Origin: Streptomyces sp. NBC_01264
GTDB lineage: Bacteria; Actinomycetota; Actinomycetes; Streptomycetales; Streptomycetaceae
Reading direction: 5' to 3'
Assembly: GCF_026340675.1 (NCBI RefSeq)
Contig: NZ_JAPEOX010000008.1
Location: 1 to 63,221, forward strand
DNA length: 63,221 bases
The position numbers and the translations under genes are program-made. The notes beneath the pieces were generated by a model that was given only the letters and a program-made list of their open reading frames with translations, ran no database searches and was not told the origin of the DNA. Shown here in pieces: positions 8,407 to 55,977 of the stretch (the first letter of the stretch is position 1; each line of letters starts with the position of its first letter).

Positions 8407-9486
8407 TCACAACCCTCGGATGAAACTTTCCGGCACATCCGACAAGGCTGCCAACTGATCAATATGAGATGCGCGGAGCGATTCCAGCGTCAACTCGGCT
8501 GGTAATCCGGCTTCTTGCAGATAGCCGATAAACCGATTCTTGATGTCTCGAGAATGCAGCCGGCCGCCACGCTCTGTTACCCACAGTGCATCCTGGCCAG
8601 ACGCTCCGCAGTTCGGGCGCACACTGACAATGTAGTCTTGGAGCGCTTCTACCGCCCAGGGTCTCACGCTGCGAACCGCCCTCCACCGAGTGGATCCCTT
8701 CACTCGATTCCCCCACTGGACCCTCAAGAGGCCATAATTTCCGAGATCCGGGGCAGAGGGGTCTTCGGAGAAATCTTCCAGGTTGAGATTGCAGCACTCA
8801 CGGCGGCGTAGCCCCCAGCCGTATGCAACCTTGAAGAAGGTTGCATCTCTCTGGGCTGCAAAAAATCCCTTTCTGGCATTCAGTGCAATATCCGAGGAAA
8901 TGCGGTCGCAGCATTCAAAGAATACTCGCAGCTCTTCATCCGTAAATGCGCGGATGCTTTGAGGCTTCGCCAGAAGGGCCGACGTGTTCCATTCGTGGCA
9001 GATCTGAGCGGGCTTCATATCGAATCGGAATTCACACTCTGAACTCCACCCCTGCGAAGGAGATGTGACATAGTCGACAAACGATCTCACGCTCACCTGA
9101 TGTGCACGCAAAGTCGCGCCGGAAAGCTTCTCCCTCTCGGAGAGATGGTTCATCCAGCTACTCAGGTCTTCGGCAGTCCATTCCCAAGGCCATTTTCCTG
9201 TGAAGGTGATCAGCCGGCGCACATGTGTCAGCTTGCTACGGACTGTGTTCCCATTCAAGCCGATCTCAGCGGACTGATACAGGGCGAACTGCGCAGCCAT
9301 CGCCGCGAAAAAGTCCTCCGGCGCCTCGGTGTCGCCCCGACTGGCCAGCCCTTTGCCTGCGTACACCCTGCTACCTCGTTCCGGCTTCGGGTGGAATCCG
9401 GGTTCGGCCACCGATTCGCCGCCTGTGACTATCGATGCCTTGTTCGGCGAAGGAGCGCGTACATCGTGGCGCCGACCGCCATGCAA
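8407..9486 (-). CDS. tyrosine recombinase, C-terminally truncated
   Basis: About 359 codons. The N-terminal SAM-like DNA-binding domain contains GNTVRSKLTHVRRLITFTGK and TLRAHQVSVRSFVDYV. The catalytic domain shows the first arginine in VAYGWGLRRRECCNLNLEDF and a box-II-like LESLRASHIDQLAALSDVP. The frame then stops after SFIRGL, before the G-H-x and catalytic Tyr regions, so the enzyme should be inactive. The start is uncertain: the frame overlaps the next gene's 3' end, and a GTG near 9411 would remove most of the overlap. Family members in Streptomyces sit on plasmids and in terminal regions. Confidence 0.7.
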   Translation of the reverse strand: MHGGRRHDVRAPSPNKASIVTGGESVAEPGFHPKPERGSRVYAGKGLASRGDTEAPEDFFAAMAAQFALYQSAEIGLNGNTVRSKLTHVRRLITFTGKWPWEWTAEDLSSWMNHLSEREKLSGATLRAHQVSVRSFVDYVTSPSQGWSSECEFRFDMKPAQICHEWNTSALLAKPQSIRAFTDEELRVFFECCDRISSDIALNARKGFFAAQRDATFFKVAYGWGLRRRECCNLNLEDFSEDPSAPDLGNYGLLRVQWGNRVKGSTRWRAVRSVRPWAVEALQDYIVSVRPNCGASGQDALWVTERGGRLHSRDIKNRFIGYLQEAGLPAELTLESLRASHIDQLAALSDVPESFIRGL

Positions 9487-10034
9487 GACAGTAGCGCCCC
9501 GACGGCCAGCTCCATCACGCTTATTCTCCCCACGCTTCCACCCAGACCTCCCTGGACGCCAGCCGGCGCCTGGGGCGGGGAACCTGTGGCACGGGAAGGT
9601 GGGATCTTAGTGGGAGAAGCGGAACTAGTGGCGCGAGGAGGGGAACTCGACAGGGATGTAGAACTGGTCGTCGGCTGCGTGGAAGCGCCACCACTGATAG
9701 CTAGATTCACCGATTCGGTCACTCCGCCGCATGTGAAATCGACCGAATATAGCGCACCGGGCCTGGCATCCGCATAGATGCGTACAGATTTACTTGTTCC
9801 GCGAGAGATGGCCACAGTATCGAACACCGCAGAATACACCTCGGTCTCCGCGTAATCACAGTTGCTGACGGAGATCTTGGCCTGACCTCCCGGAGCGACT
9901 GTCGACGGCGTGATGACGATGTCAGCGGACTGAGCAGCTGCGGCCTGACCGCCCCAGGCAAGTAGACACAACATGAAACTGCCGGTAACGACGCTCGACA
10001 AGAATGGCCCTGAAACGGGTACGGCCATGGGCAT
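9429..10034 (-). CDS. secreted, C-terminally membrane-anchored protein
   Basis: 201 residues. An N-terminal signal (hydrophobic VVTGSFMLCLLAWGGQAAAA) is followed by a roughly 90-residue beta-rich domain opening with ADIVITPSTVAPGGQAKISV and containing two cysteines (SNCDY, FTCGG). Next come a Ser/Thr/Pro stalk, a hydrophobic segment (LAVGALLSCMAVGATMYALL) and a basic tail RRTRHR, a typical anchored Streptomyces surface protein layout. A GGAGA site precedes the first ATG; the second Met, two codons on, is also possible. Function unknown. Confidence 0.75.
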   Translation of the reverse strand: MPMAVPVSGPFLSSVVTGSFMLCLLAWGGQAAAAQSADIVITPSTVAPGGQAKISVSNCDYAETEVYSAVFDTVAISRGTSKSVRIYADARPGALYSVDFTCGGVTESVNLAISGGASTQPTTSSTSLSSSPPRATSSASPTKIPPSRATGSPPQAPAGVQGGLGGSVGRISVMELAVGALLSCMAVGATMYALLRRTRHR

Positions 10035-10591
10035 TCTCCATCCTCGGACGAGCTTTCGGAACAGTACCTATCGTCTGCTCGGTGAACAGCTTTCATGCTA
10101 TGCGCGGTAGGGGTGACCCGACATCTGAGGGGTACGAATGGGGCATAGAGCCAGGGCTGGGGCAGCCTGCCTACGAGGCAGCCACCGAGCCACCAGCGCC
10201 GCTGGCCACGGGGTGCGCGGAGAGGACGGTGGCTCCTCACCGAGACCGTCGTCGGCCCAGTCGAGGAGGTTGCCGTCCTCGACGCGTACCTCGATACACC
10301 ATCGTCCAAGGATGTCGACCCGCTCCGGCCTGGGCACGTCTGCGAGCGGCACGGTGCCGGGCATGGCTTGTCGTATATGAACGTGGTGCACTTGATGCCG
10401 CCTTGGGCGGCCGCTGGGTCTCCTCGGACATTGCGTGTCTCCCCTCCTTCTCAGAAACGCTCCTTTCCCGGAGCAAGATCAAGAACAGTCGACGGGAGTG
10501 GTCCGGATCGCGGATTTACTGTCACAACTCGTTCTCACTCAAAAGTGGAATGGGGTGCGTTCTGGGAATTGTTTGTGACAGCATTCGGGTC
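10035..10591. other. intergenic region upstream of the serine recombinase
   Basis: A minus-strand frame at 10098-10391 (start MHHVHIRQAMPGTVPLADVP) may be a decayed gene, but it has no good ribosome site. The last 80 bp before the recombinase carry the TGTCACAA/TTGTGACA repeat listed separately. Confidence 0.4.
10520..10580. promoter_or_regulatory. candidate res or operator site of the serine recombinase
   Basis: TGTCACAA at 10520-10527 and its exact complement TTGTGACA at 10573-10580, 45 bp apart and ending 11 bp before the recombinase ATG. The position fits resolvase-type recombinases, which bind sites upstream of their own gene. No footprint-like core is proven. Confidence 0.45.
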
Positions 10592-11584
10592 ATGACGGAC
10601 CCTCAAACCGCACTCGCGTCCGAAGCGGATGACGTCGAGCGCCACTCCTGCCCGCGCTGTCACGCATCGTCAGGCTCACCCTGCCGCTCGCGTTCCGGGG
10701 CAGTCGCCGGGACTTATCACACCGGCCGCTTCACGAAGGTGCCCCGGCTCGGGAAACTGCTGCGGGTGCCGACCCCGGCCGACCGGGGTCCGGGGCAGCC
10801 GTGGCGGCCCGGCACGCCGGCGCCCGCGCCCATCGACCCGGACACCCCGAGCGCGGACATCCGCATCGGCTACGCCCGCTGCTCGACCCTGACCCAGGAA
10901 CTCCAGAGCCAGCTGGACGCGCTCGCCGCGAAGAGCATCCCCCGGGACAAGATCTTCTCCGAGAAGATCAGCACCCGCGTACGGGTCCGCCCGAAGTTCG
11001 AGGCCGCGCTCGCCGCGGCGAGGGAGATCAAGGCGCACGCCCCGCACTGCCGGGTGATCTTCACGGTTTACGAGATGAAGCGACTCGGGCGGGACGCCGC
11101 CGAGCTGACCGCGCTCGCCGACCACCTCGCCGCCCACGGCCTGGTCCTGGAGATGCTCGCAGGGCCCCTCGCCGGGATCTACGACCCCACCGGCCACGGC
11201 CGCCTCCTGTTCGCGTTCTTCGCCGCGATGGCGGAGACCGAACGGGAGAACATCCGGGAATCGACCCTCGAAGGGCTCGACACCGCGGCCCGCAAGGGCA
11301 AGCACGGCGGCCGGCCTCCCGTCATCACCGACGACATGCTCCACACCGTCCTGCGCCGCCGCGCGGGCGGCGAGAGCGTCGAGCAGATCCAGCCCGACCT
11401 GATCATCCCCACCGGCAAGCGCAAGGGACGGAACCCGAGCCTGTCGAGCATCTACCGGGCCCTGGCCGAGCACGAGAAACGACAGGCATACCCGGAGGCC
11501 ATCACCGCGGCACACGCCGACTTCGCCGCCCTCCAGACCGTCGGCAGCATCCCGGGCCAGACGGCAGGGAGCATGAGCGCATGA
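10592..11584 (+). CDS. serine recombinase (resolvase family) with N-terminal Cys motif
   Basis: 330 residues. Residues 1-90 form an extension with CPRCHASSGSPC (possible zinc knuckle) and a GTYHTGRFTKVPRLGKLL segment. The resolvase catalytic domain then begins IRIGYARCSTLTQELQSQLD with the nucleophilic serine, followed by KISTRVRVRPKFEAAL, YEMKRLGRDAAEL, FAFFAAMAETERENIRE, and a C-terminal HTH (GGRPPVITDDML). The ATG at 10592 is chosen over the long upstream frame because the preceding sequence is non-coding in character. It overlaps the next gene by ATGA. The probable role is resolution or site-specific recombination of a mobile element. Confidence 0.85.
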   Translation: MTDPQTALASEADDVERHSCPRCHASSGSPCRSRSGAVAGTYHTGRFTKVPRLGKLLRVPTPADRGPGQPWRPGTPAPAPIDPDTPSADIRIGYARCSTLTQELQSQLDALAAKSIPRDKIFSEKISTRVRVRPKFEAALAAAREIKAHAPHCRVIFTVYEMKRLGRDAAELTALADHLAAHGLVLEMLAGPLAGIYDPTGHGRLLFAFFAAMAETERENIRESTLEGLDTAARKGKHGGRPPVITDDMLHTVLRRRAGGESVEQIQPDLIIPTGKRKGRNPSLSSIYRALAEHEKRQAYPEAITAAHADFAALQTVGSIPGQTAGSMSA

Positions 11585-23724: not shown

Positions 23725-23984
23725 ACAAGGGACTCAACAACCGGGCCGAGAACTCACATCAGCCGACGAGGCAGCGGGAACGCGCGATGAAGGGGTTCCG
23801 TTCCGTCGGCGCAGCCCAACGGTTCCTGGCCGCGTTCAGCGGCATCTCACCCCACTTCAGACCCCGACGCCACCTCCTCACCGCCACCGGCTACCGCACC
23901 GAAATGATCATCCGCTTCGCCATCTGGGACCAGATCACCGCCACCGCAGGCCTGCCCGCGGCCACCTGAAACAGACACCACTAC

Positions 23985-24612
23985 TGATCTTTGATGCCGT
24001 GTTTGATGATCTGGGCAGGTTCGGTATGCCGGGTGTATGGGGACTCGAACTCGTGCGTCGTTGAGCCCAGTTGATTTGGAGCGGCGACGTTTGCAGGCGG
24101 CTGATTTATTCGAACAGGGGATGCGGCAGAGCAAGGTCGCCCAGATGCTCGGGGTGACGCCGCAGGCGGTCAGCCTGTGGCGGCGGGCCTGGGCTGAGGG
24201 CGGCCGTCGGGCCCTGCTGTCCAGGGGGCCGGGCGGCAGTTCGTATCTGAGCGCGGAGCAGGAGCGGGAGCTGGAGGGTCTTCTGCGGGCGGGGCCGACG
24301 GCGTACGGCTGGGAGGATCAGCGGTGGACCCTGGCCCGGGTCGGGGTCCTGATCGAGGAGCGGTTCAAGGTCCGCTACGAGGTCTCCGGGGTGTGGCGGC
24401 TGTTGGACCGTCTGGGCTGGTCGTGGCAGGTGCCGAAGGTGCGGGCCGTGGAGCGTAGCGAGGAGGCGATTGCCGCATGGCGCACGGAGACGTGGCCGGC
24501 GGCCTCCCATCCGCGCAGGTCACAGCCGCAGGCGGGTGGGTCTGCTTCGAGGACGAGGCCGGAGCCTGGCTGAACGGGCCCATCCGCCGCACCTGGGGCA
24601 AGGCCGGGCAGA
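23985..24612 (+). pseudogene. IS630-family transposase, 5' portion (copy 1)
   Basis: The left end CTGATCTTTGATGCCGTG follows a TA, the usual IS630 target. The ORF from 24037 encodes the HTH part (LFEQGMRQSKVAQMLGVTPQ, AVSLWRRAWAEGGRRALLSR) and a winged linker (VRYEVSGVWRLLDRLGWSWQ). The GGWVCFEDEAG motif with the first catalytic Asp is in another frame. Cut by IS6 at 24613. Confidence 0.85.
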
Positions 24613-27343: not shown

Positions 27344-27652
27344 TTCGGGGTCAAGGCCCGAGAACCGCTCACGCTCCCCGGTCCCGGCATCGACTCGCTT
27401 GTCGTTCACGCGCGGCGCGGCCACCTCGACAGGTCCCGCGGCCGTGGCAACCGACCGGGGCCGGTGACGGCCGTTGCGGACCACCAACCGCCGCCCGGCC
27501 TCGTCCCGCTCGCTGGTGAGTTCGGCTATGTACTGCTCGACCTCGGCCTCAAGGGCGGCGGCGAGCATCCGCCTCGCGCCTTCCCGGACGATCTCGTCGA
27601 TCAGAGAGGTACCGCTCTCGGTGGTGCCGTCTTCGGTGACTACGCTGAGCAC
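27344..27652 (-). pseudogene. IS256-family transposase, N-terminal fragment
   Basis: About 100 codons: SLIDEIVREGARRMLAAALE, AEVEQYIAELTSERDEAGRR and LVVRNGRHRPRSVATAAGPV, the Mutator/IS256 N-terminal pattern ending near the PR-N-D-K motif. Cut at 27344 by the IS6 end. Confidence 0.85.
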
Positions 27653-27841
27653 GGGCGTGCCTTCCCAGCCCGCGCGACACCGCGGGCCTACTCGGTGACC
27701 TTGAGTCGATCACCCGGGAAGGTACGCCCTCCACATCCCACGAGGCACCCCACCCCGGGCCGATCCACAGGTTCCGAGCATTGCTCGGCTCGGCCAGATT
27801 TCCCGCCACGTGCACGCCATTTTTCATAATGTGACAGCGCC
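27653..27841. other. mobile-element end remnant without a gene
   Basis: Includes about 27795-27841, whose right tip (CATAATGTGACAGCGCC) resembles the right end of the MITE candidate at 19064-19224 in sequence and spacing. No coding potential is supported. Confidence 0.5.
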
Positions 27842-28049
27842 CGCCCTCGCCCATCAACCGCAGCCCCTCACCAGCCAGAACCTTCTCGGTGGCCAGCACC
27901 GCCAGCTCGTCAAGCAGCGGCAGGCTCAGCCCGTTCGCCGACGGCCCGGTCTTCGACATCCTCACGCCGGCACCCTGGGCGCCGCCCCCGACCTCGGCAA
28001 GCGACACACCAGCCGCCGCCTCGATCGAGTGATCAACGGTCCTGCTCAT
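27842..28049 (-). pseudogene. N-terminal fragment of an unassigned, possibly IS256-type, protein
   Basis: About 69 codons from MSRTVDHSIEAAAGVSLAEV through LLDELAVLATEKVLAGEGLR, cut by the element end at 27841. The LLxEL...VLxGEGLxLxGEGG pattern hints at an IS256-like or similar transposase N-terminus, but I am not sure. It lies 48 bp from the mevalonate kinase stop. Confidence 0.5.
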
Positions 28050-28096
28050 CAGGTGACTCCTTCGGGGAAGCTCACACCTGATTCATGACACAGCCA

Positions 28097-29005
28097 TCAC
28101 AAGGTGAGCGGTGGTAGATATGTTGTGAAGGTGGATACCCCCGCTGAGTTCAGAGCGGCTTCGATCTGTGGTGCGCGGGCTGGCTCTGGTGCGAGGGCGA
28201 TGAAGGCACCCCCGCCTCCCGCCCCCGTGAGTTTGGCTCCTATGGCTCCCGCTGCCCGCGCTGTGTTGATCGCGCTATTGGTAGACGGCGTTGCAAGGCC
28301 GAGAGAGTGAAGGTGGGAGTGTGCCGCGTTCATCAATTGGCCGAGAGCGGCGATGTCGCCGCCGGTAATGGCAGTGCGGGCGAGGGTTGCGAGGGTGCCC
28401 AGTTCGGTCATGGATCTTTCAACCAGAGGTGCGTTTCGAGCGGTCTCCGCCTCGATTGTGGTAGTGGAAGTGGAGGTGGACCGCCGCTCTGTTGTGAGGC
28501 CTATCACAAGTGCGAACTCACGAGGGATGGCCAGGGGATGCATGGCTGGAATGGTGGTTGGCTGATACCAGATCAGGCCAGTGTGCAGCACCGTGCAGAC
28601 GTCCAAGCCGGATGACCTGCCGTGGAAGACACACTCGATTTCAGTTGCCATGCGCAGCAGGTCTGTCTGACTGAGCTCTGCTGCATGCAGATTGGCGATC
28701 GCGCGCACCAGGGCGACGCTCAGCGCGGCAGAGCTGCCGAGGCCGGCACCGGCCGGCAGCGCGGAGCGGATGCGAATGCTGATGTTGCGTTCGTCCATGT
28801 GGAAGAAGGCCGTGGCAAGTTGCACGGCTTGCCTTAGTTTCGGGTCTCGGCAGCGGGGGCGGCGGGCGCTGTGGGTTGTGCTTGAGGCAGTTAGCGTCAT
28901 GCCGATGGGAAGGGAGGCGGCGATGGCGGGCTGCCCGTGAAGCACGGCGTGCTCGCCCAGCAGGATGGCTTTCCCCGGAACATATTGCATGCTCTTGACT
29001 GTCAT
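28097..29005 (-). CDS. mevalonate kinase
   Basis: 302 residues; last gene of the mevalonate operon. Phosphorylates mevalonate with ATP. GHMP-kinase motifs: SMQYVPGKAILLGEHAVLHG at the N-terminus, the ATP loop SALPAGAGLGSSAALSVALV, the acidic/Ser region CVFHGRSSGLDVCTVLHTG, and motif 3 IGAKLTGAGGGGAFIALAPE. Length is normal for bacterial enzymes. The ATG (29005-29003) shares ATGA with the HMG-CoA reductase stop, so translation is probably coupled; the long upstream frame to 29353 is a shadow. It could in principle prefer another GHMP substrate, but the pathway context is strong. Confidence 0.9.
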   Translation of the reverse strand: MTVKSMQYVPGKAILLGEHAVLHGQPAIAASLPIGMTLTASSTTHSARRPRCRDPKLRQAVQLATAFFHMDERNISIRIRSALPAGAGLGSSAALSVALVRAIANLHAAELSQTDLLRMATEIECVFHGRSSGLDVCTVLHTGLIWYQPTTIPAMHPLAIPREFALVIGLTTERRSTSTSTTTIEAETARNAPLVERSMTELGTLATLARTAITGGDIAALGQLMNAAHSHLHSLGLATPSTNSAINTARAAGAIGAKLTGAGGGGAFIALAPEPARAPQIEAALNSAGVSTFTTYLPPLTL

Positions 29006-30291
29006 GTTCGGGTCTGGTCCGCGTGCGACTGGTGGGTGGCGTACCGCTGGTGGAGTGCCATGTGGCCGCGCTGGATGCCTTCTGTCGTCAGGGCGCGAAG
29101 GGCTGCGAGGTTCTGTGCCAGCCCGACGGCGGCCATGACGGTCGCGAGTTCTCTGGCGCTGCTGATACCCATCAGTTTCAGCGAAAGGGCGGCGCGGGGG
29201 TTGGCTTGGATTCGTCTTCCGACGGTGCCTACGACGATGGGTGCCTCGAAGCGGCCGCGAAGCTGTCCGCTCTCGTGGTGCCAGGTCGTTACCGGCTGGT
29301 AGCTCCCAGTGTGTGCCGCGAAGGCGTGTACTCCGGCTTCTATGGCCCGCCAATCCTGGCCGGTGGCCAGTGCGACCGCGTCGATGCCGTTCATGACGCC
29401 CTTGTTGTGGGTCGCTGCGCGATGTGTGCTCATCGTTGCCAGCAGCGATGCCTGGGCGATGCGTTCCGCGCTTTCGGAGGCGTCGTGGTCCCGGCTTGCC
29501 AGGAACCGGTCGGGAATGTCGACGTGTGCATGTGCCATGCGGTGGTCGGCAAGGTTGGAGATGATCCTCACGCCAAGGGTTCCTCCGGTCACGGCCACCA
29601 CTTCAGGGGCTATGTCTTCCAGCAGGGAGTTGACGGCGTTGGCTCCCATGGCGTCGCCCACATCAATGATGAAGGTCACCAGTAGGCTGCCGTCCGGCAG
29701 CGCTTGGGCGGTCACGCGACAGGCGCCGCATCCTCTGGCCACCATGCGCGGTTGCAGGTGGCGTGCTTCGGCGAGCAGTCGGGCCGAGGCGTTGTGCACC
29801 CGGGTCGCCGAGGCGTTTGCGTCGGAGAGATCGGTGATGTGGATCTGCCCTGGCATCAAGGCTGGGTCGGCGTCAGCAGAGATGCCGCCGCAGCTCCGAG
29901 TGAGTCTGGCGGCGTGCGACGCGGCGGCTACTACGGACGGTTCTTCGATCACCATGGGCACGATGACGTCGGTTCCGTTAATCACGAAGTTGACTGCGAG
30001 CGCGTACGGCAGCCCATATACCGCCACGGCATTTTCGATCATGGTGTCGGCATGGGTGAGCGGGAGTGGCGCGTCGGATTGCAGTAGTTGCCGCTCCTCA
30101 GGGGTCAGGCTCGCCATGTCGGTCAGCCAATCGACCCGGCTACCCAAGGGCAGACGGTGGAAGCCGGGGTAGCGCGATGTCCGGCCGTTGGCTGGAGATG
30201 CTGCGCGGCGGCTTGCAGGTTGGGCGGACCGCGTGCTGGAAGCGGTGTCCTCAGGGGCTGGATCATCACTACGGGTGTGTTGGTTCCTCAT
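29002..30291 (-). CDS. hydroxymethylglutaryl-CoA reductase, class II
   Basis: 429 residues. Reduces HMG-CoA to mevalonate. By alignment to the Pseudomonas mevalonii enzyme the catalytic set is present: E86 (MIENAVAVYGLPYALAVNF), K297 (THNKGVMNGIDA), D313 (ALATGQDWRAIEAG) and H410 (IQRGHMAL), plus DVGDAMGANAVN (D213-N218). These spacings and the absence of the class I ENVIGY-type pattern make it class II. The first 40 residues are a low-complexity extension. The ATG at 30291 overlaps the phosphomevalonate kinase stop (ATGA), so I reject the upstream frame to 30627. Cofactor preference (NADH or NADPH) cannot be read safely. Confidence 0.9.
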   Translation of the reverse strand: MRNQHTRSDDPAPEDTASSTRSAQPASRRAASPANGRTSRYPGFHRLPLGSRVDWLTDMASLTPEERQLLQSDAPLPLTHADTMIENAVAVYGLPYALAVNFVINGTDVIVPMVIEEPSVVAAASHAARLTRSCGGISADADPALMPGQIHITDLSDANASATRVHNASARLLAEARHLQPRMVARGCGACRVTAQALPDGSLLVTFIIDVGDAMGANAVNSLLEDIAPEVVAVTGGTLGVRIISNLADHRMAHAHVDIPDRFLASRDHDASESAERIAQASLLATMSTHRAATHNKGVMNGIDAVALATGQDWRAIEAGVHAFAAHTGSYQPVTTWHHESGQLRGRFEAPIVVGTVGRRIQANPRAALSLKLMGISSARELATVMAAVGLAQNLAALRALTTEGIQRGHMALHQRYATHQSHADQTRT

Positions 30292-31355
30292 TGCGCGTGC
30301 CCTGATTCCGGATGTGGTGGTGCTCCCGATCGTGTGGCAATCGGCGGCTGGGTGGGTGCTGTCCTGCCTTTCCGTACCACGCGCACGCCGCGTAGGTCCG
30401 GCGAGAGGTGCAGCGGACTGACTCCGACTTGCTTCCATGCCGAGCGGAGAGCAGCTGATTGCGCAGAGGAGAAGCAGAGGGCGATTACGCAGTCTCCCCC
30501 TACTGCTCCGGATCCCTTGACTGCTGTGGTAGCTGCCTTGGAAGCTCTGACCAGCTTGGAGACCTGGACGTGGGTTGGTAGCTGAAGATCCTGAGCCAGG
30601 TCGTCCAGCAGTTCGCCATAGCGGCAAACGGCATTACCGAGGTCCGTTCGCTGATGCTGCTCGAACGCGCACCAGAAGTCTCTCAGGACGGTATGCATAC
30701 GATCGAGGTGACGCCGACGGTTGGGGAGGCGGTCGAATGCAGCGAGGCCAGCCAACGTAGGCGTTTCCACACCGGTCCAGGCAGCGGAGATGGTGAGCTC
30801 GGGGGGCGGGGCAACGTGAGCGACGTGTGGGGTGTGGTCTCGCAATTGGTAGCCGAGCCACCCACCAAATACGGTCGCCGCCACGTCGGCTCCGCTGCCC
30901 AGGCCGTGTTGGTGCTCACGGTGCACGGCGAGCGACAGGTCGAAGAGCCGGCTACGCGTGAGCGGATTCTCCAGGTCGTGGCCGGCTGTAGCGGCCAGAG
31001 CCCCCATGATCGCTACGACGCTGGCGGCGCTGCCGCCGAGTCCGACCTTGCGGTGGCCGTGGCGGCCGTGCGCCTGAACGGTCAGGTGCCGGGGCGACGG
31101 TTGAACGAAAGCATGGGCACCCCGGTCAACAGCGGCCACCAGCAGACCAGCACCCGAGGCGAGTTTCCCCGCGGTACCAAGGGGGGCATCCACACCGAGG
31201 TCTGGGGCGGCGAGCCACCACCCTTGGGGGCAAGGCGAGCTGAAGCACTCGATGCCGCTGTCCATCGCCACCACCAGGGCACGATCTCCGTGAAGCACCG
31301 CGTACTCGCCGACCACGAGCAGTTTGCCCGGTGCATAGACGCGCACTTCATCCAT
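30288..31355 (-). CDS. phosphomevalonate kinase
   Basis: 355 residues. Converts 5-phosphomevalonate to the diphosphate. GHMP signatures: MDEVRVYAPGKLLVVGEYAV with LHGDRALVVAMDSGIECF, the ATP loop RKVGLGGSAASVVAIMGALA, HQHGLGSGADVAATVFGGWL (the actinobacterial and eukaryotic PMK-type G-S-G-x-D-V), and C-terminal AVKGSGAVGGDCVIALCFSS. The start overlaps the decarboxylase stop by 8 nt. Between a decarboxylase and an HMG-CoA reductase, its assignment is secure. Confidence 0.9.
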   Translation of the reverse strand: MDEVRVYAPGKLLVVGEYAVLHGDRALVVAMDSGIECFSSPCPQGWWLAAPDLGVDAPLGTAGKLASGAGLLVAAVDRGAHAFVQPSPRHLTVQAHGRHGHRKVGLGGSAASVVAIMGALAATAGHDLENPLTRSRLFDLSLAVHREHQHGLGSGADVAATVFGGWLGYQLRDHTPHVAHVAPPPELTISAAWTGVETPTLAGLAAFDRLPNRRRHLDRMHTVLRDFWCAFEQHQRTDLGNAVCRYGELLDDLAQDLQLPTHVQVSKLVRASKAATTAVKGSGAVGGDCVIALCFSSAQSAALRSAWKQVGVSPLHLSPDLRGVRVVRKGRTAPTQPPIATRSGAPPHPESGHAQ

Positions 31356-32379
31356 GGTCCTGGCCCGTCAGCGGCGCTTGCGTAGGTCGGGGCGGGGTGA
31401 ATGCTGACTCTGCCCAGGACGGCGGTTGTGAAAGCACGCGCGGGGCGCCACCCGGCCGAGAGCGCAGCACCCGCGACACCCCGGGCACAGCGGCCACGGC
31501 GGCGGCGACTGCATCACCGGAGCCGGGCTCACAGAGAATCTTGACTTGCGGGCCGGCATCGATCGAGAAGAACGCCATCAGGCCGCCAGCCCGCAAGTGC
31601 CACACTTCGCGGATGACTGCGACAGTGGCAGGCTCCCAGTACAAGAGAGGTGGGTCCGCCCCCAGGGCGGAGGCGTGCATACGCAGCGCATTACGTTCGA
31701 CCGCCAGGCCGATCGACTTCAGGTCCTTGCCGAGCACACCTGCTATGACCTCGGACAGGTCTTGAGCACCGGCCGCCAGCCAGGCCTTGTAGAAGGGAGA
31801 CGTGGAGGCGGTGCGAAGCATCCCGTCCCGTGAGGACGTGTGCTTGACCCCCTCTCGGGTGATTGCGATCACGACTTCCAGTGGCCAGTGCTCCGCAGGC
31901 GCGACCTGGGCCACGCTCTCGCGCTCCCCTGGCCGCCACAGTACGAAGCCGCCCAGGAGCGAGCGGCAGGCCGATCCTGAGCCCGCGCGGGCCAGCTCAG
32001 CCAGCTCGGCGCCACCTGGTGCAGGGTGCACCATGCTCCCGAGTGCGGTGGTGAGTGCCGCGTAGGCGGACGCTGACGAAGCAAGACCCGCCGCTACTGG
32101 GAAGTTGGAAGTGATGACCACGTCGAGGGCGTCACTGATGCCCAGCTGGCGGCGGGCATGGGAGACGAACCGCGCCAGGCCATCCGTGGGCCCGGGCGGA
32201 CTCCACCTACAGCTGCCACTTGCTCCTGAACCTGGCCCCTGGTGCCTTTGGACCCCTGCGAAACTGCTCAGGCCGTCCAGGGTCACGGACAGGCTCGCGC
32301 CCGCGGCGTCGTGACCGCTCGCCCCCTTGCCCCAGTACTTGACCAGGGCCAGGTTGGAACTGGCCGTCGCCCAGGTCAC
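31348..32379 (-). CDS. mvaD: diphosphomevalonate decarboxylase
   Basis: 343 residues from GTG. Performs the ATP-dependent decarboxylation of mevalonate diphosphate to isopentenyl diphosphate. The N-terminus VTWATASSNLALVKYWGKGA contains the diagnostic KYWGK. The ATP-binding loop is ITSNFPVAAGLASSASAYAA, followed by SGSACRSLLGGFVLW and the C-terminal KILCEPGSGDAVAAAVAAVP. The GTG at 32379 is part of a GTGA with the stop of the upstream 112-residue gene and places KYWGK at residues 14-18, normal for the family. The ATG at 32436 would add 19 unusual residues. Confidence 0.9.
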   Translation of the reverse strand: MTWATASSNLALVKYWGKGASGHDAAGASLSVTLDGLSSFAGVQRHQGPGSGASGSCRWSPPGPTDGLARFVSHARRQLGISDALDVVITSNFPVAAGLASSASAYAALTTALGSMVHPAPGGAELAELARAGSGSACRSLLGGFVLWRPGERESVAQVAPAEHWPLEVVIAITREGVKHTSSRDGMLRTASTSPFYKAWLAAGAQDLSEVIAGVLGKDLKSIGLAVERNALRMHASALGADPPLLYWEPATVAVIREVWHLRAGGLMAFFSIDAGPQVKILCEPGSGDAVAAAVAAVPGVSRVLRSRPGGAPRVLSQPPSWAESAFTPPRPTQAPLTGQDHG

Positions 32380-32714
32380 AGCTCGCCGACTTGCATGACG
32401 AATGCCTCCAGAGCCCAGCGTCGATTGGCTCCGCATGCCCCCGGTCCCTGTGTGAGCGAGGCGGATGACTCATTGTCCTCGGCTGGACGGGAGACCTCCT
32501 GCTCTGAGATGAATGAGGAAAGGAGCTTGTCAAATGGGTGAGGAACTGGCGCCAATCCCGACGCGTCGTCCGTAACAGTGCCGAGTTCATCGGCAACCGA
32601 CTGTAGCCAAACTGAACGAAACGCAGAAAAACCACGGTCGCTGGCTGGAAACGCCAGGCTCATCTGCACATACTCATTGACGATCGTGCGCTCGACGTCG
32701 TCTACCCACGACAT
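32376..32714 (-). CDS. unknown 112-residue protein, first gene of the mevalonate operon
   Basis: A strong AAGGGAGG site precedes the ATG by seven bases, and the stop is fused to the mvaD start (GTGA), so it is translated and probably sets the operon's expression. Sequence begins MSWVDDVERTIVNEYVQMSL and continues AFPASDRGFSAFRSVWLQSV, VPHPFDKLLSSFISEQEVS, with a hydrophilic Ser/Glu-rich stretch before a helical end RRWALEAFVMQVGEL. No signal peptide, membrane span or metal motif. I recognise no family; it is not a known mevalonate enzyme. Possibilities include a regulatory subunit or a prenyltransferase remnant, but nothing in the sequence proves either. Confidence 0.75.
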   Translation of the reverse strand: MSWVDDVERTIVNEYVQMSLAFPASDRGFSAFRSVWLQSVADELGTVTDDASGLAPVPHPFDKLLSSFISEQEVSRPAEDNESSASLTQGPGACGANRRWALEAFVMQVGEL

Positions 32715-33081
32715 CTTGAGCCTCCCTTCCGATGGAGGAAGAAGATCTTCAATCGGCGCTCATTGAGCTTCTCATCTGGCCCTGAGCAGGGTCTCAATCG
32801 CTTCCACTGTACAGTCGAAGCATCTCCTGTAGGCCCATCCGGGCCGTGACTTGTAACGGTACGTCGCGGCGCATGAGTTCGCATTCCGCTGCACTACGGC
32901 TATAACTCCCCGAGGTCGAATGGTGCCTACGGGTTTACGGACGGCACAACGGCGTACACCGGCTAACGGCCGGCTCGCCAAGCGGACGCAGCTACCGCGT
33001 CGTAGCATAGTGGTAGGCCAATTTCAGTTGGGGCGATCTCCCAATATTCGATTCAGGGCTGCCCAGTCTAAGGGAGGCGGA
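32715..33081. promoter_or_regulatory. divergent control region between the mevalonate operon and the terpene genes
   Basis: 367 bp between outward-facing starts. Both genes have nearly the same ribosome site (AAGGGAGG or AGGGAGG). A near-perfect 20-bp palindrome lies at 32801-32820. I cannot place -10/-35 boxes confidently. No regulator gene is present within the cluster itself. Confidence 0.65.
32801..32820. promoter_or_regulatory. candidate operator palindrome
   Basis: CTTCCACTGTACAGTCGAAG: a 10-bp perfect core ACTGTACAGT extended to 20 bp with one mismatched pair. It is 87 bp from the operon start and 262 bp from the cyclase start, a plausible binding site for a dimeric repressor or activator. 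Confidence 0.5.
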
Positions 33082-34095
33082 ATGCCTGCCATTCGAAATT
33101 TGGACAAGTTCTCAGACGTTCCATGGTGCCCTTTCCCTTCACTGGTCAACTGCCACGCAGAGCAGGTTGACATGCTGAGCTTTACCTGGCTGGAGGAGAG
33201 GCGTCTCCTCGAAGGGCACCCAGATAAAATGGAAAGAATTAAAAGTCAGCACAGCGGAGTTCTCGCGGCTCGGACCAACCCCGAAGTGAACGCGGAAATG
33301 CTGGGCATTTTGTCCGACTGGTATATGTGGCTGTTCGCGTTCGACGACGGATATTGCGAGGCTGCGGAACACGGCGGGCAGTCTAAGACAATGGCTCGCG
33401 CGACGGCGCTCCTGGCGCGTGTGATCGACTCTGGTCTGCCACCCCACGAGACACCAGCGCCGATACAAAACTACGCCTCCGCACTAAGGGAAATCCAGGA
33501 GCGGATTCGTACCCGGGCATCGTCTTCGCAACTTGCTCGATGGGAGACAGCGGTCCGCGACTACCTCGCCGCGCAGGTATGGGAAGCCGCGAACAGAGAA
33601 TCCGAAACAGTCCCTGGCGTTTCTGAATACGTGGCGATGCGCCGCCACGCGGGTGCCACCTACACGTGCTTGGGACTCATAGACATCGCGGCAGGCTACG
33701 AGATCGCGCCTGCTTTTTTCGATAGTCCGGCACTCCGAAGCCTCAACGACATGACGGCAAACCTTGTCAGCTGGGACAACGACCTATATTCGTACGCTAA
33801 AGAAAAGGTCGACGACCGCGGTCGTCATAACCTCATCGAGGTCATTTCGAGGCAGAACCACTTGGCCCCGCAAGATGCCAAAGAAAAAGCGGTGGAGATC
33901 CGCTCCCGCGAAATGAAGCGATTCATAGACGCAAGCGCAGACCTTTGCGCCCGTGCTGACTCTTCTGTAAGTAGATATGTGCGGAGTCTCGGGCTATGGC
34001 TGCGGGGCCACATTGACTGGTCCCGTACGAGTTCGCGATTTGATGTACCGAGAGCCGATCGGGTGGCACAAGAATTTGGCGGCGAACAGACGTGA
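33082..34095 (+). CDS. class I terpene cyclase (sesqui/diterpene synthase family)
   Basis: 337 residues from ATG after AGGGAGG; the upstream open frame to 32920 has no site. Alpha-helical terpene synthase with the metal motif FAFDDGYCE (D88, D89, E93: DDxxxE type) and the NSE triad NDLYSYAKE (N233, S237, E241). An arginine at R187/R188 lies 46 residues before the triad, matching the diphosphate sensor of bacterial cyclases. The usual C-terminal Arg-Tyr pair appears as SRF. It ionises a prenyl diphosphate with Mg2+ and cyclises it; substrate length and product cannot be told. It overlaps the P450 by GTGA. Its codon use is visibly less GC-rich than the IS genes. Confidence 0.9.
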   Translation: MPAIRNLDKFSDVPWCPFPSLVNCHAEQVDMLSFTWLEERRLLEGHPDKMERIKSQHSGVLAARTNPEVNAEMLGILSDWYMWLFAFDDGYCEAAEHGGQSKTMARATALLARVIDSGLPPHETPAPIQNYASALREIQERIRTRASSSQLARWETAVRDYLAAQVWEAANRESETVPGVSEYVAMRRHAGATYTCLGLIDIAAGYEIAPAFFDSPALRSLNDMTANLVSWDNDLYSYAKEKVDDRGRHNLIEVISRQNHLAPQDAKEKAVEIRSREMKRFIDASADLCARADSSVSRYVRSLGLWLRGHIDWSRTSSRFDVPRADRVAQEFGGEQT

Positions 34096-35444
34096 CTGGC
34101 ATCCACCTTCTTCGTGGCACTTCGGGTGCGCCAGTCGCCCCAGGGCGTCTGCCCCTGGTGGGGCACTTGCTCCCTCTCATGAGGCATCCCATCCAGTTTC
34201 TCCAAGCACTGGAACGCCTCGGCCCGGTCGTCAAGATATATCTATGGCGGCGACCTGTCTACGTGCTCACCACTCCCGAACTTGTCCGCACTCTCCTCGT
34301 GCAGGATGCGGCGAAAGTGGAGAAGGGATTTGTATTCGATAAGGCGCGCCCACTGCTAGGGAATGGGTTGTTCATTTCCGAGGGTGCCGCCCATCTGCAT
34401 CAGCGACGGCTTGTCCAGCCAGCGTTCCACCAAGACAGAATCCATATGTACACAAATAAGATGGCCGCTCAAGCTTCACTGGCAGTGCGGCGTTGGGAGC
34501 CTGACAGGCCTATAGAACTGATCGAGAACATCCACGAACTCACTCGGGACATCGTCCTGGAAGCGCTTTTCGCCGCACATCTGAGCCCGGATCAAAAGGA
34601 TCGAATCCTTCAGGCTGCTCCCGTGGTTCTCGGCGGCTTCATTCGCCGAGCACTTTACCCGTCATCCGTGATCGAGAAAATACCCACACCGGCCAATAGG
34701 GGCTTTGACGCCGCCGTCCGGGCCTTGCGACATACTGTGGACGAGATAGTCACACAAGCGAGCCAAGGAGAACCGGCAGAAGAGACATTGTTGTCTTTGC
34801 TGCTGTCCGTAAGGGATGACGCAGGTCAGCCGATGAGCCCGGTTCAGATTCGCGACGAGGCAGTCTCCGTGCTGTTGGCCGGCACCGAGACGTCCGCCAC
34901 GTCCCTCGCATGGCTGTTCTACGAACTCGCCCGCCGTCCAGAATTGCAAGACGAAATTGCCGAAGAAATCAAGACCGTCATCAGCGAAGACGGCGTGACG
35001 TGGCGTGAAATTCCTGACCTTGCGCTCATGGGAGCAGCGCTCAACGAAACCCTTCGGCTGCACACCCCAAACTGGATCCTCATGCGCCGTGCGGTGCTTC
35101 CCTTGCGCTACGCCGGCGTGTCGCTCGCCCTTGGCTCTGACATCCTTTTCAGCCTTACCACGCTGCACCGAGACCCACGTCACTATCCAGATCCATTCCG
35201 ATTCGATCCCGAACGTTGGCAGCGGGACAGTACCAAATCGCCGAAACTCTTCATGCCGTTTGCTGCAGGTCCGCACAAATGTATCGGTGACTCATTCGCC
35301 TGGGCAGAAATGATGGTCATCGCCGTTACTGTTCTCACTAGATGGCGTATCACCCTCGTAGCGCCTGACTCGGTCCGCGAAACAGCCAACTCAGCCACCG
35401 TGCGTCCCGATGGTCTACGGGTCACCCTCCACCGAAGAAATTAA
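34092..35444 (+). CDS. cytochrome P450, terpene-oxidising type
   Basis: 450 residues from the GTG that overlaps the cyclase stop. Diagnostic motifs in order: oxygen-binding I-helix LLAGTETSATSLAW (A263-T267), K-helix ETLR (E319-R322), PERF-like FDPERW, and the heme loop FMPFAAGPHKCIGDSFAWAE with ligand C397. The N-terminal PVAPGRLPLVGHLLPLMRHP resembles the pentalenene-oxygenase group (CYP183-like) by eye. It is predicted to hydroxylate the cyclase product, possibly repeatedly at one methyl as in that group. No ferredoxin or reductase is encoded nearby. A 20-bp gap separates it from the methyltransferase. Confidence 0.92.
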   Translation: MTGIHLLRGTSGAPVAPGRLPLVGHLLPLMRHPIQFLQALERLGPVVKIYLWRRPVYVLTTPELVRTLLVQDAAKVEKGFVFDKARPLLGNGLFISEGAAHLHQRRLVQPAFHQDRIHMYTNKMAAQASLAVRRWEPDRPIELIENIHELTRDIVLEALFAAHLSPDQKDRILQAAPVVLGGFIRRALYPSSVIEKIPTPANRGFDAAVRALRHTVDEIVTQASQGEPAEETLLSLLLSVRDDAGQPMSPVQIRDEAVSVLLAGTETSATSLAWLFYELARRPELQDEIAEEIKTVISEDGVTWREIPDLALMGAALNETLRLHTPNWILMRRAVLPLRYAGVSLALGSDILFSLTTLHRDPRHYPDPFRFDPERWQRDSTKSPKLFMPFAAGPHKCIGDSFAWAEMMVIAVTVLTRWRITLVAPDSVRETANSATVRPDGLRVTLHRRN

Positions 35445-35464
35445 CCGCCGGCGCCGGAGAGAAT

Positions 35465-36274
35465 ATGAACAGCGAGTCCTATATCTTGAGGTCAGCCCAC
35501 ACCGAAGAGCTGCAGAGGTTGTCAGAATTTTCTCGCATATACGACCCCGGCACGCATCGATTTTTGCGTGAAATCGGCATCAGACCAGACTGGCAGTGCC
35601 TCGAAGCAGGCGCCGGCACCGGCACCATAGCAGCGTGGCTGGCGTCATTCGTTGGCATAGGCGGATCGGTCTTGGCCACCGACACCAAACCAGCCTTGCT
35701 GGAGAATGCCGCGAAAGATCATGAGTTCACCGCAATTTACCACGACCTCACGCAGGACTCGCTAGCTGAGAACGCCTACGACCTGGTGCACTGTCGAGCA
35801 GTACTGGAACATCTAGACAGCGCCGACCAGGCGTTCCACTCCCTTGCTGGGGCAACGAACGCGGGGGGCTGGCTCGTCATCGAATCCCACGACCTGTCAC
35901 CCTCCTCGATCGACTTGGTCTGCCGTCATACGCGCAGCGACCTGGCTCCGACCGTCTCCAAATTTCTTGAGCTCGGAGCACAGGCCATGAGTCGATTCGG
36001 CGCAACACCAGAATACGGAAGCAAGTTGCTCCACAATTTTCTCGATGCCGGGTTCATCGAATTGACGCTGGAGACGCACGCCTATCCGTTCGCAGGGGGA
36101 GCGGAAAGCCTGTTCTCCCTCAGTCTTTCCCAAGTCGAAGAAGCACTGCTCGGAAGTGGCGCAATGACGCAATCGGAATATGAAGAAGCGCTGGCGGTCT
36201 TCAATAATCCCGATTCAGAATTTCTCACCCCCCTTCTCGTCAGCGTCCGAGGGCGGGCCCCCACCCGCAGCTGA
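35465..36274 (+). CDS. SAM-dependent methyltransferase (class I)
   Basis: 269 residues from ATG with a GGAGAG site. Rossmann-type fold: motif I QCLEAGAGTGTIAAWLASF (E47-G53), the acidic end of strand 2 LATDTKPALLENA, and motif IV-like YDLVHCRAVLEHLDSADQAF. It starts SYILRSAHTEELQRLSEFSR, like UbiE/Methyltransf_11 small-molecule enzymes. Co-directional with the cyclase and P450, so it probably O-methylates a hydroxyl or acid introduced by the P450. Methylation of the prenyl diphosphate before cyclisation (as in 2-methylisoborneol or sodorifen pathways) is an alternative. Last gene before IS630. Confidence 0.88.
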   Translation: MNSESYILRSAHTEELQRLSEFSRIYDPGTHRFLREIGIRPDWQCLEAGAGTGTIAAWLASFVGIGGSVLATDTKPALLENAAKDHEFTAIYHDLTQDSLAENAYDLVHCRAVLEHLDSADQAFHSLAGATNAGGWLVIESHDLSPSSIDLVCRHTRSDLAPTVSKFLELGAQAMSRFGATPEYGSKLLHNFLDAGFIELTLETHAYPFAGGAESLFSLSLSQVEEALLGSGAMTQSEYEEALAVFNNPDSEFLTPLLVSVRGRAPTRS

Positions 36275-36460
36275 AACGGGCGAACGAGATGGCGGATTCA
36301 ACCGGTCAGCGCAAAGAGTCCTGTGAGATGGCGTACTGATCTTTGATGCCGTGTTTGATGATCTGGGCAGGTTCGGTATGCCGGGTGTATGGGGACTCGA
36401 ACTCGTGCGTCGTTGAGCCCAGTTGATTTGGAGCGGCGACGTTTGCAGGCGGCTGATTTA

Positions 36461-54309: not shown

Positions 54310-55977
54310 TCAGGTGGTGGGTGTGATGGGCAACATGATCCGGGTAGGGCGGGCGGCGTCGTGGAACACGGTCTGGCGGGCGGTGCGCATGGTGGTGGCC
54401 TGGTCGCGGCCGGTGTTGAGGTTGCGGTCCCAGCGGGGGAAGCTGCTGGAGGTGATGTGGACCCGCAGGCGGTGGCCGGCGCGGACGAGGGTGCTGGTGG
54501 ACCAGAGATCGATGTGGTGCTCGGCTGCTGTTCCCGGGGTGCCGTAGGTGCGGATGATCCCGTCGGTGATGTTGAGCGACTTCCCGTGGGTGTCGACGTC
54601 GCACAGGCGGGCGACCCAGTCGGTGGAGGGGGCGTCGGTTGCCGCGTGGAGGAGGAGGGTGATCCGACCGGTCACCTCCATGTCTTCCGCGAGGGGCTCG
54701 CTGGTGTAGACGAGGACGTCGGGGCGTGCTTCGATGTCCCGCTGGTCTCGCGGGCCGGCCGGGTAGCCGCTGGCCATGAGCTGGGCCCCGCCATGGGTGG
54801 GCACCGGGTCGGCGGGATCGTAGGTGTAGCGGGCGGTCTCCTCGTCGGGTCGTGGCCTGTGCTGCGACAGACCGCCTCCTGCGTGCAGGTAGAAGGGGGT
54901 TTCCACGCTCCGTGCCAAGGGCCAGCTGTCCTCGTCGCGCCAGCGGTTGGCGCCCATGACGAAGATCTTGACCGGTGCCCCGTCGTCGTTGCGGGGCGTG
55001 TCCGGCTTGAGCCAGCGGTCGAGCCAGTCGAGGCGCAGGGCGGCGAGCGAGGTCTTCAAGTCGAGGAAGGCTCCGCTGGCCGCGGTTCCGCAGTCGACCT
55101 CTCCCACGCTGCTGGCATAGTTGGTGGTGTGTTCCCAGGGTCCCATGACGAGTCTGGCTGGTCGCCCTGCCGCGGCCATCGCCGTGTAGTTGTCGAGGAC
55201 CCCTTGGCAGAAGACGTCGTACCAGCCTCCGATGTGCAGGCTGGGCAGGTGGATGTGCTGGTGCCGGCCGGCTACTCGAGTGTCTTTTGCTGTGTCCGGG
55301 GCGGTGCGGACGCGTTCGTGGCCCAGGTCGGGGACATGGTGGCGGGCGATGACGGGGGACGGGACAGCTGGCAGTTCCCAGTACCCGCGCTGGGCGAGAG
55401 CGTCGAGGTCGCCGACGAGCGCGCTGATCCGGGCCGTGCGTTGTGCGGGGTCGTCGGCATGCTCTCTGGCGAGGAAGTCGACTCCCTGCAGCAGGGACCA
55501 GTACAGGCCCAGTCCCAGTTCGGTGGCGCCGCCACGTGTCCACAGGCCGTCGTGCGGGTCGCACCAGGTAACGCTGGGAGTGAGGACCTTTAGCTCGGGC
55601 GGGCAGCTCGCGGCGGCCATCCATTGCGCGTTGCCGAGGTAGCTGCCGCCGAGCAGGCCGACCGATCCGCTGGATCCCGGCAAGCGTGCGGCCCAGCGCA
55701 CGGAGTCGTAACCGTCGGGTCCCTCGTGGGCCAGTGGGCACCACTCGCCCTCGGACTTGTTGCGTCCCCGGACGTCCTGCAGGACGACGATGTAGCCGTG
55801 CCGGGCCAGTCCAACCGGGTCGAGGACGGCGGGCAGAGCCTGTTTCCCGTATGGTGTGCGAGCCAGTAGTACCGGGAGAACGCCGCCATCGTGCGGGCGG
55901 TAGACGTCTGCGAACAGGACCGCGCCATCGCGCATCGCGGCGGGAAGGTCGAAATCGATTTCCACTCCAGCGGGCAC
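54310..55977 (-). CDS. CocE/NonD-family hydrolase (S15 / Xaa-Pro acylhydrolase type)
   Basis: 555 residues from GTG with GGGAGG upstream. An alpha/beta-hydrolase domain (residues 1-330) with LLARTPYGKQALPAVLDPVG, VLQDVRGRNKSEGEW and the nucleophile motif VGLLGGSYLGNAQ (G-G-S-Y-L-G). The C-terminal jelly-roll domain typical of the family includes ITLLLHAATDAPSTDWVARL, CDVDTHGKSLNITDGI and HRLRVHITSSSFPRWDRNLN. It hydrolyses an ester or amide of unknown identity. Co-directional with a SnoaL-like gene 63 bp upstream. Cytoplasmic by sequence. Confidence 0.88.
   Translation of the reverse strand: MPAGVEIDFDLPAAMRDGAVLFADVYRPHDGGVLPVLLARTPYGKQALPAVLDPVGLARHGYIVVLQDVRGRNKSEGEWCPLAHEGPDGYDSVRWAARLPGSSGSVGLLGGSYLGNAQWMAAASCPPELKVLTPSVTWCDPHDGLWTRGGATELGLGLYWSLLQGVDFLAREHADDPAQRTARISALVGDLDALAQRGYWELPAVPSPVIARHHVPDLGHERVRTAPDTAKDTRVAGRHQHIHLPSLHIGGWYDVFCQGVLDNYTAMAAAGRPARLVMGPWEHTTNYASSVGEVDCGTAASGAFLDLKTSLAALRLDWLDRWLKPDTPRNDDGAPVKIFVMGANRWRDEDSWPLARSVETPFYLHAGGGLSQHRPRPDEETARYTYDPADPVPTHGGAQLMASGYPAGPRDQRDIEARPDVLVYTSEPLAEDMEVTGRITLLLHAATDAPSTDWVARLCDVDTHGKSLNITDGIIRTYGTPGTAAEHHIDLWSTSTLVRAGHRLRVHITSSSFPRWDRNLNTGRDQATTMRTARQTVFHDAARPTRIMLPITPTT

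Follow-up and report, generated by a model that had tools for sequence, protein, structure and literature searches.

CL190-type mevalonate clusters have a class I HMG-CoA reductase (HMGR) accompanied by HMGS and a type 2 IPP isomerase (IDI2), in a gene order that is likewise taken here as background. A passage of a review places mevalonate genes sometimes inside BGCs (PMC13001223). The window analyzed here is the entire 63221-base contig C8 of a genome that totals 10.67 Mb over 10 contigs and, judging by how the nearest proteins are labeled, is probably of a Streptomyces. It contains eight genes that are well supported as a terpenoid cluster. We lean towards reading them as an imported-looking island, in which a sesquiterpenoid pathway is joined by an accessory lower mevalonate operon fed by the rest of the cell; the latter may plausibly be functional and devoted to precursor supply.

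Layout, boundaries and composition of the island

The original prediction had described eight ORFs at 28097–36274, and the ORF list and Pfam/NCBIfam matches agreed with their place, strand and order. The minus-strand operon orf112-MDD-PMK-HMGR-MK comprised orf112 (32376..32714), MDD (31348..32379), a divergent PMK of 355 aa (30288..31355), a class II HMGR of 429 aa (29002..30291) and an MK of 302 aa (28097..29005). The plus-strand operon consisted of a class I terpene (sesquiterpene-type) synthase of 337 aa (the cyclase; 33082..34095), a cytochrome P450 (34092..35444) and a class I SAM-dependent methyltransferase (MT; 35465..36274). From the coordinates, neighboring genes overlapped by 4 nt at orf112/MDD (given a GTG start for MDD at 32379), PMK/HMGR and HMGR/MK, and by 8 nt at MDD/PMK; the cyclase and P450 also overlapped by 4 nt, followed by a 20-nt gap to the MT. 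No internal stops occurred in any of the eight frames (the HMGR sequence was checked without its own stop codon), and this tight packing with overlapping ends and intact frames was counted in favor of the preferred reading. Gene content, order, family membership and the intactness of the frames are direct observations. Likely starts are the ATG at 33082 for the cyclase, preceded by AAGGGAGG, the ATG at 30291 for HMGR and the ATG at 29005 for MK; for MDD the GTG at 32379 is proposed as the likely start, with the ATG at 32436 also possible. The gene previously listed as unknown is orf112, an orphan at the head of its operon with GGGAGG 5′ of its ATG, which had no Pfam match and no further copy within its own genome, both at E ≤ 1.

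The two operons diverge from a 367-bp intergenic region (32715..33081), from which co-regulation might be expected. A 22-nt palindrome at 32800–32821 (10/11 pairs; one of four sites of such quality in 63 kb) is a candidate operator only, and no site with ≤5 mismatches was found in the relatives' loci compared, except in L001 and L121, which are the same place. No sigma-70-like promoter was seen in the gap; this, the recurrence of such palindromes in the window and the lack of similar sites in the relatives were counted against the preferred reading. The eight genes contained no TTA codons.

The description of the surroundings as an IS graveyard was apt, since dense direct and inverted repeats flanked both sides. 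On the left, a repeated IS-like element began at 27360 (in the query) and had eight more copies on C1, C3, C5 and C7, which terminated between 27786 and 27797; at about 27786 it truncated a small minus-strand ORF (27549–28049) 3′ of MK, of which 27787..28049 remains. This remainder had no Pfam match at E ≤ 1, and it may itself be mobile-element DNA because short pieces of 27791–27943 also matched C1, C5 and C6. On the right, 36334–36460 duplicated 23982–24108. Only the eight genes and the truncated small ORF lay between the flanking repeats. The repeats were called insertion sequences from transposase-like ORFs judged by eye; many near-identical copies in both orientations, the longest reaching 2.5 kb, lay in 1–27786 and 36334–63221, and the right end of the contig fell inside one of them. 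Other ORFs in the window included an intact S15-type peptidase/acyl hydrolase amid repeats (54310–55977, minus strand), a resolvase-like ORF (10004–11584, plus strand) and a phage-integrase-like ORF (8407–9486, minus strand) whose GC3 of 0.63 was comparable to that of the terpene half. Plasmid records held no close DNA match to 27900–36400; 37 of them had HMGR relatives and 27 had cyclase relatives, all at <60% identity.

The eight genes had a GC3 of 0.62–0.77, as against 0.88–0.94 for six genes of a second mevalonate cluster on contig C2, which was counted in favor of the preferred reading. Values differed between the halves (0.69–0.77 for the four mevalonate genes; 0.62–0.66 for cyclase, P450 and MT), which allows for their separate origins and was counted against it. 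Four control genes of the same contig had 0.63 (the integrase), 0.84, 0.85 and 0.90, so that low GC3 is neither a contig-wide rule nor specific to the island. The cyclase and P450 ORFs of relatives had 0.82–0.94 (6 of 10 listed), and in L116, the contig with a close HMGR relative, the values were 0.86 for MK and 0.84 for HMGR.

The mevalonate operon and a second cluster in the genome

Three of the four mevalonate enzymes scored above the cut-offs of their families: MK with TIGR00549 (204.7 bits, cut-off 163; PDB match 4hac), HMGR with TIGR00532 (332.5 vs. 259.95) and MDD with TIGR01240 (181.0, cut-off 171; PDB 5v2l). The best match of PMK, TIGR01220, stayed under the cut-off (104.7 vs. 165.7), with PDB matches 3k17 and 1k47. 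Both this score and its GLGGSAA, which replaces the GLGSSAA of the aligned protein Lin0012, were counted against the preferred reading. Residues 39–417 of HMGR aligned with 6dio and 1qax, which we take to be class II reductases, and by its sequence HMGR is assigned to class II. The motif regions of HMGR, MDD and MK, in which the identity of the catalytic residues is our assumption, aligned with solved enzymes; this counted in favor.

In a tree of 45 rows (29 of the 120 HMGR matches listed, P0001 included, and 16 loci), HMGR grouped with sequences labeled Streptomyces or Kitasatospora, or left unnamed, in a clade of 15 rows (support 100/98), with P0002 from Streptomyces sp. IBSNAI002 as sister (100/99). 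The enzyme was rare among the genomes sampled. At E ≤ 1e-40 it was matched in 6 of 394 family genomes, closely only in its own and in G207 (67% identity), the other four standing at 40–44%. At E ≤ 1e-90, matches occurred in 1/70 (G207), 1/392 (its own genome) and 0/393 genomes; the last draw, made with another center and completeness limit, largely repeats the 392-genome draw in the first genomes that it lists and adds little.

The original prediction presumed that most Streptomyces make isoprenoids by the MEP route, and credited the locus with its own mevalonate operon. This stands for MK, HMGR, PMK and MDD but falls short of the whole pathway: the window yielded no HMGS, IPP isomerase or prenyl synthase, and thus no complete operon with HMGS beside the other four. 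Nothing better than E 0.09 turned up anywhere in it with queries for type 1 and type 2 isomerases, HMGS and prenyl synthase. As controls in the same search, MDD and MK were strongly recovered, and HMGR reached only E 0.001 because the query was the other (class I) reductase. Genome-wide, there were two HMGRs, one HMGS match above cut-off, on C2, and seven polyprenyl-synthase matches, none of them on C8. The C2 cluster (2406000–2425000) is ordered prenyl synthase-MK-MDD-PMK-IDI2-HMGR-HMGS, with 510 bits for HMGS (TIGR01835), 358 for IDI2, 205.5 for MK, 285.5 for MDD and 403.5 for PMK. Its HMGR appears class I-like, with TIGR00533 as best fit, at 283.8 against a curated cut-off of 441.8. Beside the cluster, on the opposite strand, lies a gene resembling beta-ketoacyl-ACP synthase III.

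The terpene operon

The expectation of a cluster for an oxidized, probably methylated terpene was supported: the cyclase, P450 and MT genes form what looks like a single operon, with relatives elsewhere. The cyclase matched PF19086 (149.7 bits, cut-off 23.7), and D88, D89, N233, D234, S237, K240 and E241, which presumably form the metal-binding motifs, were invariant in 25/25 aligned sequences (picked from 88 matches), as expected by sequence of a class I terpene synthase. It was nearest to FPP cyclases by both sequence and fold, which was counted in favor and suggests a sesquiterpene synthase using FPP; a C15 product is not certain, because a diterpene synthase was close in fold too (9m25, 7y50), which was counted against, and the lists contain sesterterpene synthases as well. 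4-epi-cubebol synthase (NF042951) was considered and set aside, at 250.6 bits against a curated cut-off of 500. P0138 from Nonomuraea coxensis, which we assume to be the 1-epi-cubenol synthase NcECS, sits in a clade other than that of the cyclase, and the same product is not implied. For S. lactacystinaeus, a table in one review assigns viridiflorene to synthase BAP82213.1 and also gives ent-viridiflorol for CryA of Crossiella cryophila (PMC11430642), and a passage elsewhere credits the same S. lactacystinaeus strain with further synthases (PMC10301674). Viridiflorene is thus a lead only, as the S. lactacystinaeus relative P0126 may differ from BAP82213.1; the relative P0134 comes from Crossiella equi, not Crossiella cryophila.

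The P450 matched PF00067 (237.3 bits, cut-off 22.8), with 3dbg as nearest PDB entry and 314 bits to NCBIfam pentalenene oxygenase, below the cut-off of 800. The MT matched PF08241 (47.3 bits, cut-off 21.2). Its fold matches were generic class I enzymes, including O-, S-, N- and aromatic C-methyltransferases, which leaves O- versus C-methylation unsettled; terpene C-methyltransferases of the 2-MIB or sodorifen type were absent among the 50 rows listed per fold search, which excludes nothing. Two observations on the MT counted in favor: P0209 and P0210 were sisters (100/99), and P0210 and the cyclase relative P0170 were both labeled Streptomyces sp. NPDC048362, each on a 4143-base contig.

Possible link between the two operons, and known counterparts

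In the preferred reading, the cyclase would cyclize FPP, the P450 would oxidize the product and the MT would then methylate it, most simply at the oxygen added by the P450. The accessory operon would convert HMG-CoA to IPP that could feed this product, with HMG-CoA, DMAPP and FPP supplied by the rest of the cell, including the C2 cluster with its HMGS, type 2 isomerase and prenyl synthase. A bolder version, which we put forward tentatively and think on the whole unlikely, is that the island was imported and combines a new pathway to a methylated sesquiterpenoid with a “booster” (HMG-CoA to IPP) that has a class II HMGR and taps host HMG-CoA, so that one cell would have two mevalonate routes differing in reductase class, one of them for a single product.

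The closest terpene counterparts are the cyclase-P450 pairs of genus g14 (Kitasatospora and Streptomyces labels, including P0126), whose cyclases were 56–63% and P450s 60–65% identical to those of the island. The two genes adjoined in 5/5 relatives, in support of the preferred reading. Against it, MK, HMGR, PMK and MDD matched in none of these five cyclase loci (16–18 kb read in each), and the cyclase and mevalonate halves were together in no relative examined. A methyltransferase lay 3′ of the pair in one of the five (L022), as a candidate counterpart only. L116, the single close HMGR locus, is a contig of only 3711 bases and for that reason silent on the pairing of the halves; it has a polyprenyl synthase after MK.

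These data could also fit a chance neighborhood, in which insertion sequences joined two operons of separate function and the mevalonate genes feed other isoprenoids. The cyclase relatives without mevalonate genes, the GC3 of the two halves, the repeats on both sides and the polyprenyl synthase of L116 agree with it; however, the stretch between the repeats is confined to the eight genes and one truncated ORF, and both operons share a single divergent gap, with no repeat DNA separating them, and we regard such a coincidence as rather improbable. That the island is a decaying import, no longer functional after losing HMGS, isomerase and prenyl synthase, is very doubtful: the truncated ORF after MK, the polyprenyl synthase of L116 and type 1 isomerase of L088, the low GC3 relative to C2 and the PMK score would suit it, but all eight frames and the motif regions are kept, and 27601–28110 showed no trace of lost genes, since polyprenyl synthase, isomerase and HMGS queries all failed to match there at E ≤ 1 (the remaining queries gave short matches, best E 0.048).

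If the link proposed in the preferred reading is true, an incomplete mevalonate operon of another reductase class has been drawn into a terpenoid cluster, in a genome that already contains a fuller mevalonate cluster; the dedication of precursor supply to one product becomes testable, and an uncharacterized terpenoid is indicated.

The eight-gene set had been thought perhaps undescribed. Among the listed matches in open full-text literature, no title or abstract opening described the arrangement, which does not establish its absence in print; the order MDD-PMK-HMGR-MK itself also occurs in Rhodanobacter. Within the best 80 of 584 HMGR loci, 23 had a same-strand MK after HMGR, 14 had an IDI2 match before it and MK after it, and six had MDD upstream; the full order was found in one, L088 of Rhodanobacter lindaniclasticus. 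No other gene reached threshold in 52/80, and HMGR lay ≤3 kb from the locus end in 26/80. In L097, PMK was seen between MDD and HMGR once the threshold was relaxed. With L088, this makes the order uncommon in the sample and not unique, and shows that divergent PMKs can be missed. L033, titled Comamonas, had IDI-HMGR-MK-MDD matches at positions identical to those of Myxococcus L030, so its label may be wrong. L088 shares the order on one strand with the present locus, but a type 1 IPP isomerase follows its operon, its HMGR lies elsewhere in the tree, and it has no cyclase, orf112 or MT match.

The likeness to CL190-type clusters is the linkage of mevalonate genes to terpenoid biosynthesis in Streptomyces. 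The window operon is not of that type, having a class II HMGR and the order MDD-PMK-HMGR-MK, with HMGS, IDI and prenyl synthase not found. The predicted difference in gene order extends to reductase class, and a CL190-like cluster, that on C2 (L027), is present in the same genome.
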